From contig DXFS01000064.1 in the NCBI GenBank assembly GCA_019114345.1, positions 1 through 33,024 on the forward strand: 33,024 nucleotides of DNA, written 5' to 3'. The first letter of the stretch is position 1; each line of letters starts with the position of its first letter. The translations under genes and the position numbers were made by a program. The stretch comes from Candidatus Agathobaculum pullistercoris (GTDB lineage Bacteria; Bacillota; Clostridia; Oscillospirales; Butyricicoccaceae). This document shows positions 14,884 through 31,375 of the stretch, piece by piece. A model generated the notes under the pieces. That model made no database searches. It was given only the letters and a program-made list of their open reading frames with translations, and was not told the DNA's origin.

Positions 14884-16374
14884 TTAAAATTCCATAAACG
14901 ACATGCAGTCCACATAATAATCCATGAACGCCGGGCTGGCCGAGAGCGACAGCTCGGTTGCCTGCTGTGCCATGTGCTCGGATTTTTCGCGCAGGGATTT
15001 GTTCATCAGCAGCATGGACGCGCCGCCCAGCGCGCCGTTGCCGATAAACCCGGTCTTGTCGCGCAGCGCCGCCGGGAACAGGCCGATCGCGCAGGCGGAG
15101 TCAAAGTTCATCGAGCTGCCAAAGCCGCCCGCGATGGAGAACCGCTCGACACCCGCCGCGTTCACGCCCTCTTCCTCGAGCAGGGTGATCAGGCCCGCGC
15201 AGATCGCGGACTTGGCCAGCTGGATCTGGCGCACGTCGCGCTGGTCGATCTGCACGCCGCTGCCGCCGATGGCAAAATCCTCCTCGAGAAAGCCCGAGTC
15301 GTCGATCGCCCCGGTTTCCAGCATGACCGCGAGCGCATCCAGGATACCCGAACCGCACACACCCTTGGCGGGCTGGTCCTGCACGGTCTCGAAGCATATC
15401 TGATCGCCCTCGCGCCACACCGCGCGCACCGCGCCCGGCGCCGCAGGCATGCCGCAGGACAGGCCCGCGCCCTCGAACGCAGGGCCGGCCGCGGTCGAGC
15501 AGCAGAGCAGTTTTCCATCCTTCGCGAGCGCCATTTCGCCGTTCGTGCCGATGTCCGCGAGCAGCTGCACGCCGCCGGACAGCATATCGGACGCAAGGAT
15601 CGCGCATACGATGTCCGCGCCCACATACGCGCCGATGCAACGCGGCAGATAGACCGGCGCGCCCGCCAGCGTGTGCCGGCTCATGCAGCCGAAAAAGGAC
15701 TGCACGTCAAACGGCACGACCGCGAGCGAGGCCGGATCCAGCCCCTCGTACAGGTGCAGCATGGTCGAGTTGCCGGTGACGACCGACTCCTCGATGCGAT
15801 CCACCCCCGCCTCCTGCATGCATTCCGCGGCCATGCGCTCGAGTTGGCTGTTGATGCGTCCGGAGAGCACGTCCAGCCCCTCGGTCTTGCACGCCTCAAT
15901 GCGCGAGATGACGTCCGCGCCAAAGCCGCGCTGCGCGTTTTCCGCGAGCCGTTCGGCGAGCACCGCGCCGCTTGCGCGGTCGAACAGCTGCATGGCGACG
16001 GTCGTCGTGCCGATGTCCACCGCGATACCGTATCCGCTCTCGGTGTGCTCGAAGGGCGGGGTCTGGTTCCAGGCGATGATCTTGGAATTGCCCTCGGCCT
16101 CGAGCGTGACAGTGGCATCGCCTGCCAGACGGCAGGAGCAGGCCAGGCGGATGCCCGCGGCGAGGTCGTCCCCGCCCAGCAGGCGCCGCTCAGACGCATC
16201 GGGTGGTTCCACTGCTCCTGTGATCTGTACGCGGCACTTGCCGCAGGTGTGGTTACCTGCGCAGGGCAGCGCGAAGGAGGGTACAGCCTGCCGCAGCAGG
16301 TCGCTGACGAGCGCGCCCGCTTCGGCGGACACCGCGCGGCTGTCCCCGCCGCGCACGATGGTCAATTCACACAT
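14884..16374 (-). CDS. Ferredoxin-ASKHA protein, RACo-like reductive activator of corrinoid proteins (DUF4445)
   Basis: A 496-residue protein. Residues 1-90 are a plant-type 2Fe-2S domain with C38, C44, C47 (PCAGNHTCGKCRV) and C79 or C81 (RLACSCR). From about 115 comes an actin-like ATPase domain with phosphate loop VDIGTTT (119-125), a second loop near LLADIGTNGEMALAKDG, and the adenosine-site block SIAGGFGSSMNFD. RACo-type proteins use ATP to reduce inactive Co(II) corrinoid to Co(I) in methyltransferase systems. The start overlaps the upstream gene by 8 bases and has GGAG just before. Its corrinoid partner is not in this window. Confidence 0.87.
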   Translation of the reverse strand: MCELTIVRGGDSRAVSAEAGALVSDLLRQAVPSFALPCAGNHTCGKCRVQITGAVEPPDASERRLLGGDDLAAGIRLACSCRLAGDATVTLEAEGNSKIIAWNQTPPFEHTESGYGIAVDIGTTTVAMQLFDRASGAVLAERLAENAQRGFGADVISRIEACKTEGLDVLSGRINSQLERMAAECMQEAGVDRIEESVVTGNSTMLHLYEGLDPASLAVVPFDVQSFFGCMSRHTLAGAPVYLPRCIGAYVGADIVCAILASDMLSGGVQLLADIGTNGEMALAKDGKLLCCSTAAGPAFEGAGLSCGMPAAPGAVRAVWREGDQICFETVQDQPAKGVCGSGILDALAVMLETGAIDDSGFLEEDFAIGGSGVQIDQRDVRQIQLAKSAICAGLITLLEEEGVNAAGVERFSIAGGFGSSMNFDSACAIGLFPAALRDKTGFIGNGALGGASMLLMNKSLREKSEHMAQQATELSLSASPAFMDYYVDCMSFMEF

Positions 16375-18412
16375 GTCGGTTCTCCTTTACAGCAGTTTGC
16401 ATCAGGCAGGTGCTTGCGGTCACGCGGATGCGCGTGCACAGCTTAACCCCGCCCACCAGAATATCAGCAGTCATATCGTTTACACGGGAGACAAAGGACA
16501 GTTCGCAGGTTGCGCCCTGCGCGCGCAGGCTTTTTTCCGTACGCTCACGCAGGCGCGCCTCCGCCCACGCGGCGGCCTCGGCCTCATCCGCGAAGTAGCG
16601 CGGCGGCTGTCCGTCGCACAGCACCTCCCAGTCGCCCTGCACGCTGTCATCGGGTGACAGGCCGTGCGGCCGCACCTCGGCCTCGGCCGAGGCGGACATG
16701 CGTCCGGTCACCGCGCCGACCGCGTTGGCCGTAGGAGCGCAGTCCGGGATGATGCATTCTGCGCCGAGCGCCTTGGCTGCCTCTGGCAGGAACAGGTGCA
16801 CCGGCCCACCGATGCCCACGAGCGCCGCGGGCGCTCGGAAGGCGTAGTGCAGCAGGCCGTCGCCGCCTGTATGGCGGTTCTCCCACTGCAGGCGGAGCAG
16901 CTCGCGCATCCCGTCGTCCAGCCCGTGGCGGCGGAAGTAGGGGGAGCTGTGTTCGAGCAGCAATTGGGAAACGCCGTAGAACACTTCGCGCGAAACATCG
17001 TCATAGATGCGGCCGCAGAATTCCTCAGGCAGCATGCGCAGGGAGTTTGCGGCGAACTGAACCGCGAGCTGCGCGGCTTCGCGGTCATAGCGCGTATAAT
17101 CGCCGCGCACGTGCATCACGTCGGTCGGCGTCAGTCCTGCGCGCAGGATGACGCCCGCTTTTTCCAGCAGCCCGGTGTGCAGCAGGTATTTGTCCACGCC
17201 GACTGCATCCGCGGCCTGCTGCAGGCTGAGCGGCCCTTTTTCCAATGCGCGGCACAGGCGGCGGTCTGACTCCCCGATCGGGAGATGGTGCCAGTCCGCT
17301 CGGCCGAGGGTGAGGAACTCATGCAGCGGCAGGGTGTGAGCGGGCACCTCGCGCACCTGGCTGCGCAGCACGGGCAGGATGGCCGGGTACTGTTCGGCCA
17401 GCACGCACAGCGGGATGATTCGGTCCGGCCCGAGGGTGAGCGCGCCGTCCTTGTCCCAGCGGATGGCGCTGTCGCCGCCGAGCGCGAACGAGGTGGAAAA
17501 CAGTCCCTTGACCAAGGTCTTCCACTGCCCCACGCGGATACCGCCGTCTGCGAGCAGCGGCGCGCTGTTTTCGATGAGCGCCACGTCGGTCGTCGTGCCG
17601 CCGATATCGACGACGACTGCGTTGTCGCGCCCGGTCAGCGCGCTGCCGCCGAGCGCGGAGGCAGCCGGGCCGGAGAGCAGGGTCTCGACCGCGTGCTCCG
17701 CCGAATACGCCAGCCCCATCAGGCTGGAATCCGAGCGCACGATCAGGATCTCCGCGTCAATGCCGCGTTCGCGGAATGCGCGTGTGACCGCTGCGATGAA
17801 ATCCTGTGTGATGGGCAGCAAACCCGCGTTAAGCACCGCGCTCGCCGCGCGCTCCAGGCTGGAAAGGCCGGAAAACAACTCGCTGGCGCACACCACAGGC
17901 AGGCCGGTCTTTTCGCGGATGATTTCCGCAGCCTTCTGTTCAAGCACGCCGCCGTTGCGCATGCCGTAGATCTCGCAGACCGCGCAGCCTTCCGCATCCG
18001 CGAACCACTCGCGCACGTTCGCGCGCAGCTCGTCCCAGTCCGGCTCCTCCATGATCTGTCCCGTGATGGTGGTTTTGCAGGGCAGGTAACAGATATCGTC
18101 CGGGTCGGTAAAACCGTAGTCCGCACCGAAGCGGTCGATCCCCTTGCGGTCGATGCCCATGAGCAGCAGCCGCGTGCGGCGGAATTTGCCCTCTACGCAC
18201 GCATTGGTGGCAAGCGTGGTGGACAACCCTGCGACCGTGGCCTTGCGGCACAGCACGGGGTCGAGCCCGTCGAGTGCCGCGAGAATACCACGCGTCAGGT
18301 CGTCGTAGGTGGTCAGCGCCTTGTTCTGGCCGAGCACCTTTCCTGTGTCGAAATCATAAAGAATGGCGTCCGTACAGGTGCCACCCGTATCAATGCCGAT
18401 GGCAGGCTTCAT
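16367..18412 (-). CDS. Hydantoinase/oxoprolinase-family ASKHA protein
   Basis: A 681-residue protein of the HyuA/oxoprolinase superfamily. The N-terminal ATP loop is IGIDTGGTCTDAILYDF, the central loop NAVVVDIGGTTTDVALIE, with VRSDSSLMGLAYSAEHAVET between. No HyuB-like partner is adjacent, which argues against an N-methylhydantoinase. Single HyuA-like proteins of this type are often encoded beside RACo and UroD-like methyltransferases in methylotrophic acetogens and methanogens, where their role is not settled. The start at 18412 follows AAGGAAG; it is the first gene of the minus-strand pair and overlaps the RACo gene. Confidence 0.85.
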   Translation of the reverse strand: MKPAIGIDTGGTCTDAILYDFDTGKVLGQNKALTTYDDLTRGILAALDGLDPVLCRKATVAGLSTTLATNACVEGKFRRTRLLLMGIDRKGIDRFGADYGFTDPDDICYLPCKTTITGQIMEEPDWDELRANVREWFADAEGCAVCEIYGMRNGGVLEQKAAEIIREKTGLPVVCASELFSGLSSLERAASAVLNAGLLPITQDFIAAVTRAFRERGIDAEILIVRSDSSLMGLAYSAEHAVETLLSGPAASALGGSALTGRDNAVVVDIGGTTTDVALIENSAPLLADGGIRVGQWKTLVKGLFSTSFALGGDSAIRWDKDGALTLGPDRIIPLCVLAEQYPAILPVLRSQVREVPAHTLPLHEFLTLGRADWHHLPIGESDRRLCRALEKGPLSLQQAADAVGVDKYLLHTGLLEKAGVILRAGLTPTDVMHVRGDYTRYDREAAQLAVQFAANSLRMLPEEFCGRIYDDVSREVFYGVSQLLLEHSSPYFRRHGLDDGMRELLRLQWENRHTGGDGLLHYAFRAPAALVGIGGPVHLFLPEAAKALGAECIIPDCAPTANAVGAVTGRMSASAEAEVRPHGLSPDDSVQGDWEVLCDGQPPRYFADEAEAAAWAEARLRERTEKSLRAQGATCELSFVSRVNDMTADILVGGVKLCTRIRVTASTCLMQTAVKENRHV

Positions 18413-18444
18413 GGCAATGCTTCCTTCCCTAAGTTGTTGTTCCC

Positions 18445-18450
18445 ATTATA
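18445..18450 (-). promoter_or_regulatory. -10 element of the hydantoinase-family/RACo operon
   Basis: On the minus strand TATAAT at 18445-18450, about 32 bases upstream of the ATG. There is no recognisable -35 at 16-18 bases, so the promoter may need an activator. The shared palindrome at 18498-18516 lies about 70 bases upstream of the predicted start. Confidence 0.5.
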
Positions 18451-18497
18451 GCCCGGCCGCCTGCGCGTCGTATAGGAATATCGTCCGCCGGTTTGCA

Positions 18498-18516
18498 CGA
18501 AATTGCCCTGATTTCG
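18498..18516. promoter_or_regulatory. Candidate regulon operator, copy 1 (CGAAAT-N7-ATTTCG)
   Basis: CGAAATTGCCCTGATTTCG is a 6-bp perfect dyad with a 7-base spacer in the divergent control region between the hydantoinase-family and DUF1638 genes. A near copy with the same spacing lies upstream of the UroD-like gene (19497-19515): 15 of 19 bases match when one is read on the opposite strand. The hexamer GCACGA also recurs at 18495 and 18516, 21 bases (two helical turns) apart, a spacing favoured by AraC-family activators. The linked PocR-AraC protein is the natural candidate binder. Confidence 0.6.
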
Positions 18517-18545
18517 CACGATTTTCCAAAACTGCGTCCGGACAG

Positions 18546-18574
18546 TTGCCGCCCCGCGCGGCGGGATATATAAT
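18546..18574 (+). promoter_or_regulatory. Promoter of the DUF1638 gene
   Basis: TTGCCG (18546-18551), a 17-base spacer and TATAAT (18569-18574). The palindrome CCGCGCGG sits within the spacer. Confidence 0.68.
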
Positions 18575-18607
18575 AGAGCCATCCAAAAAAGAAGTGGGAT
18601 GAAGTAT

Positions 18608-19399
18608 ATGCGTTTGGCTATCATTGGCTGCATGGTGATGAACCGGGAGATCTCGCATCTCGTGTCGGAAAGCCGCCATGTGGTGCGCGTCTGGTGGCTG
18701 CGGCAGGGCCTGCACGACACGCCCGATGTGCTGCGCACCGAGCTGCAGCATGCGGTCGACGAGATCGGGCGGGAAAACGAACGCCTGCCCGAAAGCCTGC
18801 GTTTTGAGGCGGTCATCTTGGCATACGGGCTGTGCTCGAACGGCGTGATCGGCCTGCGCAGCCGCGCGCTGCCGGTCGTCGTCCCGCGGTGCGACGACTG
18901 CATCTCCCTCTTCCTCGGCTCGGCGGACCGTTACCGCGAGATGTTTCAAAAACTGCCTGGCGTGTACTGGTATAACACCGGCTGGATTGAGCAGGCATTC
19001 ACCCCGTCAAAGGAGAACTACGCGCGCCGCCGCGCGGAATACGCAGAGGAATACGGCGAGGAAAATGCAGACTATCTGATGGAGTGCACCAACAACTGGA
19101 TGGTCAACTACCGGCACTGCGGCTATATCACCTGCCCTCTGGGTGAGCGTGAGGGCTGCGAGGAATACGCCCGTCAGGCGGCTGCGGATTTCGGGTGGGA
19201 GTTTACCAAAGTCGAAGGTGATATGGGTTATCTGGACGCACTGGTCAACGGCCCGTGGGACGATAAGCGTTTCCTGACCTGCCCGCCGTACAGCCGGATT
19301 GAAGCGGATTTCAGCAACCGTAAGTTCCGCAGCGTGCCCTGCGAAAAAGAGGACGCCTCTCCAGCGCCGGACGGGGAGAGATACCGCCCCGTACTTTGA
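18608..19399 (+). CDS. DUF1638 protein
   Basis: A 263-residue protein beginning MRLAIIGCMVMNREISHLVS. The conserved blocks VILAYGLCSNGVIGL, LPVVVPRCDDCISLFLGS, GVYWYNTGWIE and WMVNYRHCGYITCPLG identify DUF1638. Cysteines recur in the conserved segments (C8, one in YGLCSNG, two in RCDDC, two in HCGYITC), suggesting metal or cofactor binding. The family is repeatedly found in corrinoid methyltransferase clusters of methanogens and acetogens but has no assigned activity. I prefer ATG at 18608 (AGTGGG 9 bases upstream) over 18599. It is followed by its own terminator. Confidence 0.85.
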   Translation: MRLAIIGCMVMNREISHLVSESRHVVRVWWLRQGLHDTPDVLRTELQHAVDEIGRENERLPESLRFEAVILAYGLCSNGVIGLRSRALPVVVPRCDDCISLFLGSADRYREMFQKLPGVYWYNTGWIEQAFTPSKENYARRRAEYAEEYGEENADYLMECTNNWMVNYRHCGYITCPLGEREGCEEYARQAAADFGWEFTKVEGDMGYLDALVNGPWDDKRFLTCPPYSRIEADFSNRKFRSVPCEKEDASPAPDGERYRPVL

Positions 19400-19421
19400 T
19401 ACAGAGACAATATTTTAAAAC

Positions 19422-19450
19422 TAAAAGCCCTTGCAAAAGCGGGGCTTTTA
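19422..19450 (+). terminator. Terminator after the DUF1638 gene
   Basis: TAAAAGCCC pairs with GGGCTTTTA across an 11-base loop that can pair further (TTGC/GCGG). T-rich sequence follows. It separates the DUF1638 gene from the UroD-like gene, which therefore needs its own promoter. Confidence 0.75.
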
Positions 19451-19476
19451 ATTTTGGGAAGAAAAATGGGAACTTT

Positions 19477-19515
19477 TTGACAAAGTCAATTATATCCGAA
19501 ATCTGCGCAATTTTC
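19477..19515. promoter_or_regulatory. Control region of the UroD-like gene with operator copy 2
   Basis: CGAAATCTGCGCAATTTTC at 19497-19515 is the second copy of the motif at 18498-18516, with one perfect half and one degenerate half at the same 7-base spacing. Immediately upstream is a small dyad TTGAC-AAA-GTCAA (19477-19489). Downstream, TATCTT (19543-19548) is a possible -10 element with no good -35, and GGTATCTT-T-AAGACACC forms an imperfect dyad around it. The layout suggests an activator-dependent promoter. Confidence 0.5.
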
Positions 19516-19604
19516 TCCTAACGGTTTGTTGCCGGCGCGTGGTATCTTTAAGACACCGACAAACGAGTGAAGCGGATTCGGAGTAATAATGGAGGTTGAT
19601 TTTG

Positions 19605-20636
19605 ATGAAAAGAAACATGGATCAGTGGACCAAGGAACTGCTTGAGGCGCCAATCAAAAAGGCGGTACCGGTACTGTCTTTCCCGTCCATCCAGCTGCTG
19701 GGCATCACGGTCAAGGACCTGATCAACGACAGCGACCTGCAGGCGCGCGGCATGAAGGCCGTTGCCGACCGCACGAACGCGGGAGCGGCTGTCAGCCTGA
19801 TGGATCTTTCGCTCGAGGCAGAGTGCTTCGGCGCACCCATCCGTTTTTCGGACGACGAGGTGCCGACTGTGACCGGACCGGTCATCTCCACTGAGGTGGA
19901 GGAGGACGAGCGCATGGAGCAGGCGGAGGCGCTCGCGGTACCGGAAATCGGAGCAGGACGCACCCAGATTTATATTGACGCGATCGAGAAGGTCATGGGC
20001 ATGATTGAGGACCGTCCGGTGTTCGCAGGCGTTATTGGCCCCTTCTCGTTGGCGGGCCGTCTGCTGGACGTCACCCAGTCCCTGATTTACTGCTACGAAG
20101 AGCCGGACATGGTGCATGTTGTCCTGGAGAAATGCACGGAGTTCATCACCAAATATATCAATGCCTACAAGGCGGTCGGGGCGAATGGCGTTGTCATTGC
20201 CGAGCCGCTTGCCGGCCTGCTGTCTCCCGCACTCGCGCAGGAGTTCTCGGGCGATTACAGCAAGCGCATTGTGGAAGCTGTGCGCGATGAGAACTTTGCG
20301 GTCATTTTCCACAACTGCGGCAATACCGCGAATATCACGCTCGACTCCATGTTCTCCAACGGCGCGAACGCATACCACTTCGGCAATGCAGTCGATATGG
20401 CAGAGATCATGGAGAAGGCTCCGGCAGACATTATCTGCATGGGCAATGTCGACCCGGCGGGCGAGTTCCGCAACGGCACGCCTGAATCCATCCGCGCCAA
20501 GACGCTTGAGGTCATGGAGAAGTGCTGCAGCCACAAGAATTTCGTGATCTCCTCGGGCTGCGATATTCCGCCGCTCTCCAGCTGGGACAACATCGACGCG
20601 TTCTTTAACGCGGTTGACGAGTTCTATTCCAAATAA
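19605..20636 (+). CDS. Uroporphyrinogen-decarboxylase-superfamily methyltransferase (MtaA/MtbA-like)
   Basis: A 343-residue TIM-barrel protein. Its zinc ligands match the methylcobamide methyltransferase branch: H236 and C238 (VIFHNCGNT) and C319 (ISSGCDIPP), the H-x-C-xn-C pattern that activates a thiol or similar acceptor. Haem-pathway UroD lacks this. Other conserved parts are MDLSLEAECFGAPIRF, AGVIGPFSLAGRLLDVTQ and ICMGNVDPAGEFRNGTPESI. Related proteins move methyl groups between a corrinoid protein and a substrate or acceptor. Direction and substrate cannot be read here. GGAGG lies 9 bases before the ATG. Confidence 0.87.
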   Translation: MKRNMDQWTKELLEAPIKKAVPVLSFPSIQLLGITVKDLINDSDLQARGMKAVADRTNAGAAVSLMDLSLEAECFGAPIRFSDDEVPTVTGPVISTEVEEDERMEQAEALAVPEIGAGRTQIYIDAIEKVMGMIEDRPVFAGVIGPFSLAGRLLDVTQSLIYCYEEPDMVHVVLEKCTEFITKYINAYKAVGANGVVIAEPLAGLLSPALAQEFSGDYSKRIVEAVRDENFAVIFHNCGNTANITLDSMFSNGANAYHFGNAVDMAEIMEKAPADIICMGNVDPAGEFRNGTPESIRAKTLEVMEKCCSHKNFVISSGCDIPPLSSWDNIDAFFNAVDEFYSK

Positions 20637-20670
20637 AGTTCCACACATACCAACTGCATAAATTCACGGG

Positions 20671-20706
20671 GAAAACGGCTCTGGCATAACTGTCAGAGCC
20701 GTTTTC
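20671..20706 (+). terminator. Terminator after the UroD-like gene
   Basis: A perfect 13-bp stem, GAAAACGGCTCTG with CAGAGCCGTTTTC, and a 10-base loop. Confidence 0.88.
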
Positions 20707-20744
20707 TCCAGATAAAAACACTGTACGGCGCAGTCCGGCCGTGC

Positions 20745-20750
20745 TATAAT
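20745..20750 (+). promoter_or_regulatory. Extended -10 promoter of the lipoprotein gene
   Basis: TATAAT with TG one base upstream, in the GTGCTATAATGGG context seen elsewhere in the window. No good -35 at 16-18 bases. Confidence 0.5.
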
Positions 20751-20826
20751 GGGGGACGGTAAACAGGGTATGCCGGGAAGAATGATGTGCATGCTCGCGT
20801 CTGTCTGCCGGTCAGGAGGAAAAACG

Positions 20827-21267
20827 ATGAAAAAACTTCAGCTGCTGTCTCTTATTGTTTGCGCTGTAGCGGTGCTGCTCTGCGGGTGCCGGGATACGGC
20901 GGACGCGGTGGATGCCGGGGATACGATTGCCAAGGCGCAGGAGATTGCCGTTTTGCCCGCCGGGGCGGATGAACCGGTGCGGACCATCACGGAGCAGGAT
21001 GAACTGGATGATTTTGTGCACGCGCTTGCCCTCGAAACCTGGCGGCCCGAGGCGGTGCCGGCAGATGCGGCGGCGGTTGGGCAGTTTGAATTGTCGCAGG
21101 AGTCGACGAAAAAGTTTGGTGAGAGCGGAGAAGACGAAACCTTGCATCCAGTTTGCTGCATCACCCTGTATGATGGCCCCTATATCGGTCTGGAGATCGC
21201 GGGGATGGAAATGGCGTTCCGGATCAGTGATGACGCAGCAGGATTCCTGAACGGTTTCTTTGAATAG
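20827..21267 (+). CDS. Small predicted lipoprotein, function unknown
   Basis: A 146-residue protein with a lipoprotein signal: MKKLQLLSLIVCAVAVLLCG followed by the lipobox cysteine C21. The mature part is acidic, about 125 residues, with AQEIAVLPAGADEPVRTITE and a C-terminal AFRISDDAAGFLNGFFE. It likely forms a small extracytoplasmic domain. The start follows AGGAGGAAAAACG; in-frame extension to 20749 has no ribosome binding site. It lies between the UroD-like gene and the PocR regulator but has its own promoter and terminator, so membership of the methyl-transfer cluster is unproven. Confidence 0.8.
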   Translation: MKKLQLLSLIVCAVAVLLCGCRDTADAVDAGDTIAKAQEIAVLPAGADEPVRTITEQDELDDFVHALALETWRPEAVPADAAAVGQFELSQESTKKFGESGEDETLHPVCCITLYDGPYIGLEIAGMEMAFRISDDAAGFLNGFFE

Positions 21268-21303
21268 AACAGCTGCCGCCCGCGCTAAGGACCAGGAAAA
21301 TGG

Positions 21304-21338
21304 AACAGCCGGCTTTGCATGAGGCAAAGCCGGCTGTT
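21304..21338. terminator. Bidirectional terminator between the lipoprotein and PocR-AraC genes
   Basis: A perfect 15-bp stem, AACAGCCGGCTTTGC with GCAAAGCCGGCTGTT, and a 5-base loop. On the plus strand a run of T follows (TTTTTATTTTTT). Confidence 0.92.
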
Positions 21339-21342
21339 GTTT

Positions 21343-22542
21343 TTATTTTTTGTGTACACCATGTGTGCTGCGCTGCTCACGGTATTTGCCCGGGGCAATA
21401 CCGGTCTGCTTTTTAAAAATGCGGGTGAAGTAGCTCTGGTCGTCAAATCCGACCGCACAGGCGATCTCCGCGATCGGCATGCCGGTCGAACGGAGCAGGG
21501 TTTTGCTGCGCTCGATTCGCAGGCGGTTGACATATTCGGTGAATGTGCAGCCCAGCTCATCCTTGATGATGCGGCAGAAGTAGGACTTGGACAGGTAGAC
21601 CTGCTCGGCCGCCTGGTCGAGCGTGAGCTTGTCGGTCAGGTGCTCCTTGATATAGGCAGTGGTTTTGAAGATCACATTCTGGTGCTTGATGTCGTTTAAG
21701 TCAAACACAAAGCTGATGAACTTGTGAAGGATCGCGCCGATCCAGCGGTTGAGCGACTCGATCGAGGTGAACGAGTCCACCTCCTGCTCATAGCGGTAGC
21801 ACAGGTTGAAAATCTCGTCCACATCCGCACCGCCGTCGATCGCCGCGCGGCTCATGAGCACAAGCAGCTCACGGATACGTGACTTGATGACCTGCTGGTC
21901 GTTGTCCGCCAGATAATAAATATGCACAAGCAGCTCATTGAGCAGTTCCTGCGCAGCCTCCTTGTCGCCTGAGCGGATATGCTCCTGCAGGCGGCGTTCG
22001 CTTTCGATGGGGTAGGCGCGCACCGTATTGTCCGCTGACAGGTCGTACATCATCTGCAAGATCGCAGCTTGGTTGCCTGAATCCACGTCGGGCGGCAGCA
22101 TATCGAGCGAAAAGGAGGAAACTGCCGCGGCAATGATTTCGCTCAGCGAGCGTGCCTGCGCGGTTGTCAGGCGGGGGACGCCGTCCATCGGCTCGGCCGT
22201 GAGCAAGGTATCCTCAAACGGATCCTCGTCGTCGTTGGACATGATAAACGGCCCGGTGATGATGCAGTATTCCATGGCCGAGCCCGACTGAAGCGGCGGC
22301 GTGGCGACGAACACCAGCCCGCGCGGGCAGTAATAAATGTATTTGCCGTCCCACCGTTCCGCCTCGTAGGCGCCGTACAGGTGGGTCAGATAGGCGGTGC
22401 AGCAGGTGCTCTGCAAGGCACAGGTGTGATGATACGGCTCGCGTGCAAACGACTTTGTCGTCAGGTCAAGCAGCGCGGTATGCACGCCGGTCAGCGTTTC
22501 GATATGCTCACACAGATGCAGGCAGCGGTCGGACAGATCCAT
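21343..22542 (-). CDS. PocR-domain AraC-family transcriptional regulator
   Basis: A 399-residue regulator. The N-terminal half (about 1-170) has the PocR sensory pattern: MDLSDRCLHLCEHIETLTGV, CALQSTCCTAYLTHLYGAYE, YYCPRGLVFVATPPL and a following ITGPF. Residues about 295-395 are the AraC double helix-turn-helix: KLTLDQAAEQVYLSKSYFCR, FTEYVNRLRIERSKTLLRST, IAEIACAVGFDDQSYFTRIF. PocR domains regulate propanediol, cobalamin and methyl-transfer genes in Firmicutes and may sense small metabolites. It probably controls the adjacent corrinoid-linked cluster. The start at 22542 follows AAAGGAGTGCAGGAATA; the longer frame to 22587 lacks a site. Confidence 0.9.
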   Translation of the reverse strand: MDLSDRCLHLCEHIETLTGVHTALLDLTTKSFAREPYHHTCALQSTCCTAYLTHLYGAYEAERWDGKYIYYCPRGLVFVATPPLQSGSAMEYCIITGPFIMSNDDEDPFEDTLLTAEPMDGVPRLTTAQARSLSEIIAAAVSSFSLDMLPPDVDSGNQAAILQMMYDLSADNTVRAYPIESERRLQEHIRSGDKEAAQELLNELLVHIYYLADNDQQVIKSRIRELLVLMSRAAIDGGADVDEIFNLCYRYEQEVDSFTSIESLNRWIGAILHKFISFVFDLNDIKHQNVIFKTTAYIKEHLTDKLTLDQAAEQVYLSKSYFCRIIKDELGCTFTEYVNRLRIERSKTLLRSTGMPIAEIACAVGFDDQSYFTRIFKKQTGIAPGKYREQRSTHGVHKK

Positions 22543-31111: not shown

Positions 31112-31375
31112 GGCACCTGCGAAAGCGGGGAAAAACGCGATGATGCCGGAGATTGCTGCCAGAGGCAGGTAACTTCGGCGGAGTAGGTCCGACAATCGGG
31201 CGGTTGAGATAACTGCTATCAGCCGGAAGGCATTGCGCCTATCTCGGCAAAAACGCAATGTTCCTGCGTAAATTCGGGACTTGCGGTGCGTGCGCCGCAA
31301 AGCCGATAGCCTGAACCACTTACGTTTCTTAATTGTGACCGGATCATGACACTATCAGTGTGCCCGGTTATTTTC
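31112..31375 (+). ncRNA. Candidate structured RNA / long leader upstream of rpsJ, class not recognised
   Basis: No protein gene fits this stretch. From the predicted start it folds into: CCTGC-GAAA-GCGGG, a GNRA tetraloop hairpin (31116-31129); GCCGGAG/CTTCGGC enclosing CTGCC-AGA-GGCAG (31155-31190 region); CCGA-CAA-TCGG; GCC-GGAA-GGC; and TTGCGG/CCGCAA (31281 onward). ACGCA (31253-31257) pairs with TGCGT (31265-31269), while its loop GTTCC (31260-31264) can pair with GGGAC (31276-31280): an H-type pseudoknot. Competing long pairs exist (31231-31237 with 31254-31260; 31203-31211 with 31240-31248). A terminator-like hairpin, ACCGG...CCGGT then TATTTT, lies at 31338-31374. It matches no riboswitch, 6S, tmRNA or RNase P consensus I know. 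Confidence 0.55.

Follow-up and report, generated by a model that had tools for sequence, protein, structure and literature searches.

Parts of several described corrinoid systems recur in a gene island of Candidatus Agathobaculum pullistercoris, the subject of this analysis. In Phaeobacter inhibens, genetic evidence connects DUF1638 and a RamA-like protein with the reactivation of B12 (Price et al. 2018, PMC5764234), a hydantoinase gene (HydA) is drawn in betaine corrinoid clusters (PMC9768040), and His-Cys-Cys is described as the S-methyltransferase ligand set (PMC10418091). The window, that is, the whole stretch of 33,024 nucleotides analyzed here, is contig C31 of a draft genome (2.06 Mb, 102 contigs, 77.4% complete). 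Between positions 14884 and 22542 it holds genes for a RACo/RamA-type corrinoid reductive activase, a lone HyuA-type ASKHA ATPase, a DUF1638 protein, a UroD-superfamily protein (UroD-A), and a PocR-AraC regulator. On balance, we lean toward the reading that this island would be an activation hub that, with a second methyltransferase of the thiol type, serves demethylases whose genes lie in trans and uses a non-folate acceptor.

A conserved gene set

All five genes named in an original prediction for this DNA were found in place by their frames and by Pfam and NCBIfam matches. The activase (14884..16374, minus strand) has an N-terminal 2Fe-2S (Fer2) domain, an ATP-dependent RACo middle domain, and a RACo C-terminal domain, all three above the Pfam cut-off (PF00111, 27 bits; PF17651, 126 bits; PF14574, 219 bits), and is the single RACo found in the genome. 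The HyuA gene (16367..18412, minus strand) overlaps it by 8 bases. Oriented oppositely are the genes for the DUF1638 protein (18608..19399, plus strand, from the conserved start 18608 in a frame of 18599-19399; PF07796, 129 bits) and UroD-A (19605..20636, plus strand, from the conserved start 19605 in a frame of 19596-20636; PF01208, 186 bits), and the PocR-AraC gene (21343..22542, minus strand, in a longer frame to 22587; PF10114, 33 bits; PF12833, 90 bits) is convergent behind a hairpin. Residues Cys8, His36, Cys76, Asp97, and Cys98 of the DUF1638 protein were invariant in alignments of 15 and 16 sequences. RamA-type reactivation, and the genetic link of DUF1638 to it, are known from published work on homologs; by analogy, the DUF1638 protein is a probable B12-reactivation partner of RACo, and given that link DUF1638 is not wholly undefined, which corrects the original prediction.

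Named close relatives of the HyuA gene were found in Agathobaculum and Butyricicoccus, with others labeled only Clostridia or Eubacteriales. Among 17 named loci whose HyuA shares 60% identity or more (best segment), 16 have RACo, 16 have DUF1638, and 13 have a UroD of type A or B; a corrinoid protein (CoP) is present in 10 of the fetched stretches, PocR in nine, a family here called YGCC in four, and MttB in none. Several of these stretches end at contig edges, and several loci belong to genomes that also appear under G labels below. Co-occurrence was counted in 51 genomes, 49 of the same family plus G062 and G076, which were included for carrying DUF1638. RACo and CoP occur together in 17 genomes, each alone in one, and neither in 32; DUF1638 and CoP are found together in 13 (alone in two and five, respectively; neither in 31), and DUF1638 and URO-D in 14 (alone in one and four, respectively; neither in 32). 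The proposal that this is a corrinoid methyl-transfer accessory island is supported, and the expected co-occurrence of the five genes in relatives was seen with synteny; among Agathobaculum/Butyricicoccus relatives the island is conserved as a co-regulated unit.

A shared operator and a corrinoid protein on another contig

A search of the genome found one B12-binding protein, a 211-residue MttC/MtgC-type CoP on contig C70, whose gene adjoins a purD-like gene (assigned from reading its sequence); it supplies the MttC/MtaC-type cognate corrinoid protein of a three-part system. The CoP gene adjoins the module in four of 14 stretches from relatives (G007, G028, G044, and G045), with products 87 to 97% identical to the C70 orphan, and the best model for the G045 homolog is MtgC, with a score below the cut-off. 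In G002 and G047 it lies apart from the module, directly beside a PocR homolog. The claim that a corrinoid protein and a primary methyltransferase are absent holds for the locus, and fails for the corrinoid protein in the genome and in the four relatives: it is missing from this locus only.

Upstream of both HyuA and CoP there is a motif of two GTGC-type half-sites ~21 bases apart, which at the HyuA-RACo promoter (18491..18526, minus strand) reads GTGCGAAA-N5-GCAATTTCGTGCAA, with the half-sites 21 bases apart. A position weight matrix was built from eight HyuA sites in relatives, drawn from 16 HyuA-upstream stretches of which eight yielded a site close enough for training and eight did not; the sites of the genome itself and all CoP sites were left out. 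On this matrix the HyuA site scored 39.9 bits, the top of the window, and the maxima in 15 Markov control copies ranged from 6.6 to 18.8 bits. Second best in the window, at 16.3 bits (the next scored 13.0), was a weaker operator-like site before the UroD-A gene (19487..19522, plus strand), and a similar sequence was found upstream of UroD in all five relatives inspected. With a one-base-shorter spacer allowed, the CoP promoter ranked first in its 18-kb C70 stretch (26.5 bits versus 11.7 for the next), and the spacing of the CoP site is intact in G002, G007, and G044. The stretch scanned in G047, where CoP lies beside a PocR homolog, contained no operator (best, 9.9 bits).

The operator was also searched for as a pattern, with up to three mismatches, in 18 whole genomes (12 with the module and six without). 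This gave 11 matches, nine of them in seven module-positive genomes, each at the promoter of HyuA/RACo or of CoP, and two, with three mismatches each, in module-negative genomes (G003 and G005); five module-positive genomes had no match, and a reversed control pattern gave one. The HyuA-RACo operator was matched without mismatches by this pattern, which was written from it and related sites. An orphan corrinoid protein with the same operator, named beforehand as evidence that would support the proposal, was thus found on C70, with the caveat of the one-base spacer difference. The PocR-AraC regulator is presumed to read the operator.

Putative methyl acceptor and candidate demethylases

The zinc positions of UroD-A are H239, C241, and C322 (numbered from 19596, where the frame starts), a His-Cys-Cys set, and the zinc-type site, HNCGN with a later GC, aligns with that of MtbA. 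Its NCBIfam scores were 137.6 bits for mtaA_cmuA, below the cut-off of that model, and 71.4 bits for hemE, for which the cut-off is 302.95. UroD-A was rejected as a HemE on this score and on its position apart from the single HemE reference in a tree, and URO-D proteins are missing from 33 of the 51 genomes, including 19 of 25 in the same genus; therefore, the haem reading is unsupported, in line with the original prediction. In the tree (46 rows plus two partial references, with long branches and open forks), UroD-A and one Oscillibacter protein, also His-Cys-Cys, formed their own clade with support of 100/99, away from MtbA and from the UroDs of Mlp-like clusters, published Mlp sequences being outside the tree set. 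The best reading of UroD-A is as a thiol-type second methyltransferase, with the direction of transfer suggested by the search for acceptors that follows.

A folate route was looked for in 35 genomes, comprising all 15 DUF1638 carriers and 20 others, in none of which was MtrH (PF02007) or MtaB found. ACS was present in one of the 35 (G076, of another family), and a link to the Wood-Ljungdahl pathway was unsupported, as no ACS was found in module genomes of this family. Across the 51 genomes, matches to the pterin-binding domain PF00809 above the cut-off were 32 MetH-length frames and three of 293 to 309 residues (G033, G045, and G046), with one further match under the cut-off. The three shorter frames carry what we take to be a FolP-like signature. 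No folate:corrinoid methyltransferase of the MtgA/AcsE or MtrH type was recognized in the PF00809 and PF02007 searches, including those of G002, G004, G033, G044, and G045, which are 97 to 100% complete; a thiol acceptor reached through UroD-A would therefore be the simplest reading.

As for the methyl donor side, genome searches anticipated by the original prediction returned the B12-binding protein of C70 and no MttB, MtaB, or pterin-binding domain in this genome, which is 77.4% complete. MttB and MtaB were also not found in the module carriers G004, G033, and G045 (97 to 100% complete). MttB was present in six of the 51 genomes, every one with DUF1638 and none of them the genome under study. 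Non-pyrrolysine MttB homologs lie near BCCT transporters in G002 (L193:7879-9288) and G007 (L194:4490-9917), two genomes in which no folate:corrinoid methyltransferase was recognized; the BCCT assignment in G007 is by sequence likeness.

A candidate primary methyltransferase family was found. YGCC is a family of ~440 residues, with Tyr-Gly-Cys-Cys in 22 of 22 aligned sequences, for which there was no Pfam assignment and URO-D matches fell only under the cut-off (best E, 0.0018). It is present in 15 of the 51 genomes: 14 of the 15 DUF1638 carriers (G036 being without it) and one of the 36 others. In G045 the genes form a same-strand run of YGCC, PocR, UroD-A, and CoP, and loci L114 and L115 have YGCC, PocR, and UroD-A in such a run. 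Profile comparison of YGCC with UroD using hhalign and broad alignments gave a probability of 98.7% (E = 1.7e-16, 317 columns), with 0.1 to 0.5% for the controls HyuA, RACo, and MttB, placing YGCC in the UroD superfamily by homology. The genome's two copies (G000:C45:3750-5066, minus strand, L229; G000:C51:9865-11181, plus strand, L230) are a divergent branch, ~32% identical to the G045 protein and 97% to each other. Each adjoins a GPH symporter, as do similar copies in G004, G007, and G020, and beside the C45 copy there are IolE-like and Gfo/Idh-like genes as well; the copies in G002 and G044 are near ABC-transporter genes, apparently of the sugar type (IolE-like, Gfo/Idh-like, and ABC-transporter names were assigned by reading the sequences). 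These features point to YGCC, a remotely UroD-like family, as likely demethylases.

In the mechanism we propose, the PocR-AraC regulator would read the operator before HyuA-RACo and before the MtgC-like CoP gene on C70, and demethylases encoded elsewhere, the best candidates in this genome being the two YGCC copies beside sugar-type symporters, would transfer a methyl group to Co(I)-CoP. RACo, together with the DUF1638 protein and HyuA, would spend ATP to bring CoP that has been accidentally oxidized to Co(II) back to Co(I). UroD-A would use its His-Cys-Cys zinc site to pass the methyl group from CoP to a thiol (homocysteine or some other), a step proposed because no folate:corrinoid methyltransferase was found. 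The substrate may perhaps be O-methyl sugars or cyclitols, and the neighborhood of the C45 copy, with its IolE-like, Gfo/Idh-like, and symporter genes, would suit an O-methyl-inositol such as pinitol. That such compounds are demethylated in these gut bacteria, in which no ACS was detected, by an undescribed UroD-superfamily branch made up of YGCC proteins and sugar-linked His-Cys-His UroDs, through a shared CoP and a PocR-controlled recharging hub and onto a thiol rather than folate, is a speculative extension that we consider unlikely as a whole. The genome also has a UroD gene (L183:2284-3591, minus strand, G000:C24) near an apparent sugar-binding-protein gene and a DeoR-like regulator, both assigned by reading, and four UroDs from relatives that seem to resemble it have His-Cys-His at the zinc positions.

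UroD-A is not constant across the module. A type B UroD, of another clade and with Phe-Cys-Cys at the zinc positions, accompanies the module at L111:1169-2548, L118:4645-6024, L155:7001-8380, and L120:16350-17840. As it is found in place of UroD-A, the methyltransferase slot looks exchangeable, with RACo, HyuA, and DUF1638 staying. The C terminus of type B gave a weak thioredoxin-like match below the cut-offs (L111 protein only). A CobW-type GTPase gene adjoins type B in L111 and L155 and is ~8 kb off in L120, the Pfam scan covering L111 only.

Between UroD-A and the regulator is a lipoprotein-like frame (20749..21267, plus strand) with no family in Pfam or NCBIfam, which the original prediction does not name; it had no tblastn match in 15 stretches, 14 from relatives and one from contig C70, and is probably not part of the system. 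It is followed by a bidirectional terminator-like hairpin (21304..21338, both strands) with a 15-pair stem and T-rich tails on either strand. Elsewhere in the window is an S10-Clostridia ribosomal protein leader (31132-31195, plus strand; Rfam RF03136).

Alternative readings and comparison with known systems

Several observations weigh against the hub reading. The CoP site ranks only third, with 4.8 bits, on the fixed-spacing matrix, the one-base-shorter spacer was permitted only after the sequence of that site had been seen, and the genome-wide pattern missed the site because of this spacer. Neither YGCC copy of the genome has a comparable operator (best, 3.6 and 12.8 bits), G013 has YGCC without DUF1638, and YGCC compared with UroD-A alone, in narrow alignments, gave no significant result. 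Some module genomes also have MttB, UroD-B, or UroD-C, and UroD-A might then act as a demethylase instead of a second methyltransferase; G028 and G037 lack UroD-A among the URO-D matches whose sequences were read. No other part of the system is seen in the fetched stretches of 44 of 56 more distant HyuA loci. With the genome 77.4% complete, an MttB or folate methyltransferase could be absent from the assembly only. The substrate, the acceptor, and the activity are all putative.

Of the other readings, the one that survives best, although we think it doubtful, makes UroD-A and CoP a self-contained transmethylase that would pass a methyl group from an S- or Se-methyl donor via CoP to another thiol with no separate demethylase. 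MtsA/MtsB provide the model for such an arrangement. The His-Cys-Cys ligands agree with it, being those given for S-methyltransferases in PMC10418091, as does G045, a 100% complete genome with one URO-D, one small CoP, and no MttB; yet G045 also has YGCC in the same gene run, and in the tree UroD-A falls outside the Mlp-like/MtbA group.

It is improbable that the island is a type I mlp gene cluster in reduced form, salvaging methyl-selenium or methyl-sulfur compounds. Such a cluster has like parts, namely, a CoP, a Ram protein, a His-Cys-Cys UroD, and no folate methyltransferase (PMC10418091), but there is a single UroD here versus two or more Mlps. On PRK06252, UroD-A scores 139.6, versus 394.3 and 364.5 for Mlp-like-cluster UroDs of the same family, and clusters of UroD, CoP, and RACo in G027, G038, and G040 are without DUF1638; that these three would be mlp clusters is our own reading.

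Equally improbable is a dedicated catabolic operon in which HyuA acts on the substrate itself, using ATP to open or phosphorylate a methylated lactam, hydantoin, or ketone. Its fold does match acetone carboxylase beta, caprolactamase, and N-methylhydantoinase over the full length, but no HyuB partner was recognizable by eye among the adjoining frames, and MttB genes adjoin HyuA at nine of the 56 more distant loci (in Spirochaetes, Syntrophomonadaceae, Hydrogenedentota, and others), a pattern more in keeping with a role on the corrinoid side than with a single substrate.

MetH with a reactivation domain is longer than ~790 to 830 residues, the length of most of the MetH-type frames here. The least probable reading is that RACo and DUF1638 recharge a MetH without its own reactivation domain, as has been proposed for Phaeobacter and Desulfovibrio: DUF1638 and a RamA-like protein are tied to a split MetH by Price et al. 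(PMC5764234), but DUF1638 does not track MetH-type frames (both in 10 genomes, alone in five and 22, respectively, neither in 14), RACo is missing from 21 of the 32 genomes that have one of these frames, and the genome under study has RACo and no MetH was found in it.

With the hub reading retained, the set offers a wiring diagram for B12-dependent demethylation in Agathobaculum/Butyricicoccus relatives in which no ACS and no recognized folate acceptor were found, and therefore raises the question of where the methyl group goes. It also connects DUF1638 and a lone HyuA with corrinoid recharging via the operator and co-occurrence. Were the substrate an O-methyl sugar or cyclitol, the pathway would convert common plant compounds in the gut; the titles and abstract beginnings of the literature searched revealed no corrinoid system acting on them. 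Full-text searches (titles, abstract beginnings, and passages, with subscription journals mostly outside) returned no published description of this gene set.

Compared with the soluble MtaA/MtbA coenzyme M methyltransferases of methanogens, the zinc residues of MtbA align with those of UroD-A and these families provide its best NCBIfam models, but all scores are below the curated cut-offs. To our knowledge, coenzyme M is not expected in this bacterium. The glycine betaine clusters with HydA (PMC9768040) likewise combine a hydantoinase-type gene with a corrinoid protein and a reductive activator; they show both a first and a second methyltransferase, whereas here there is no MttB in the island and no folate-dependent second methyltransferase was found. 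The P. inhibens system has in common a RamA-like protein with DUF1638, and DUF1638 beside a small corrinoid protein, but it serves a split methionine synthase (PMC5764234), whereas here DUF1638 is accompanied by HyuA and UroD-A and its presence does not track MetH. The type I mlp cluster of Kountz and Balskus (PMC10418091) shares a His-Cys-Cys UroD methyltransferase, a monomeric corrinoid protein, a Ram/RACE activator, and the lack of a folate methyltransferase. It is defined by two or more Mlps accompanied by CoP and Ram, codirectional and within 2 kb, whereas here there is one UroD, placed in the tree apart from the Mlp-like rows, together with HyuA, DUF1638, PocR, and the operator, and the corrinoid protein, on another contig, and the candidate demethylase are partly in trans. 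The parts are therefore of known kinds, and what is new is their combination, the operator common to the orphan CoP, the lack of a recognized folate acceptor, and the YGCC family.

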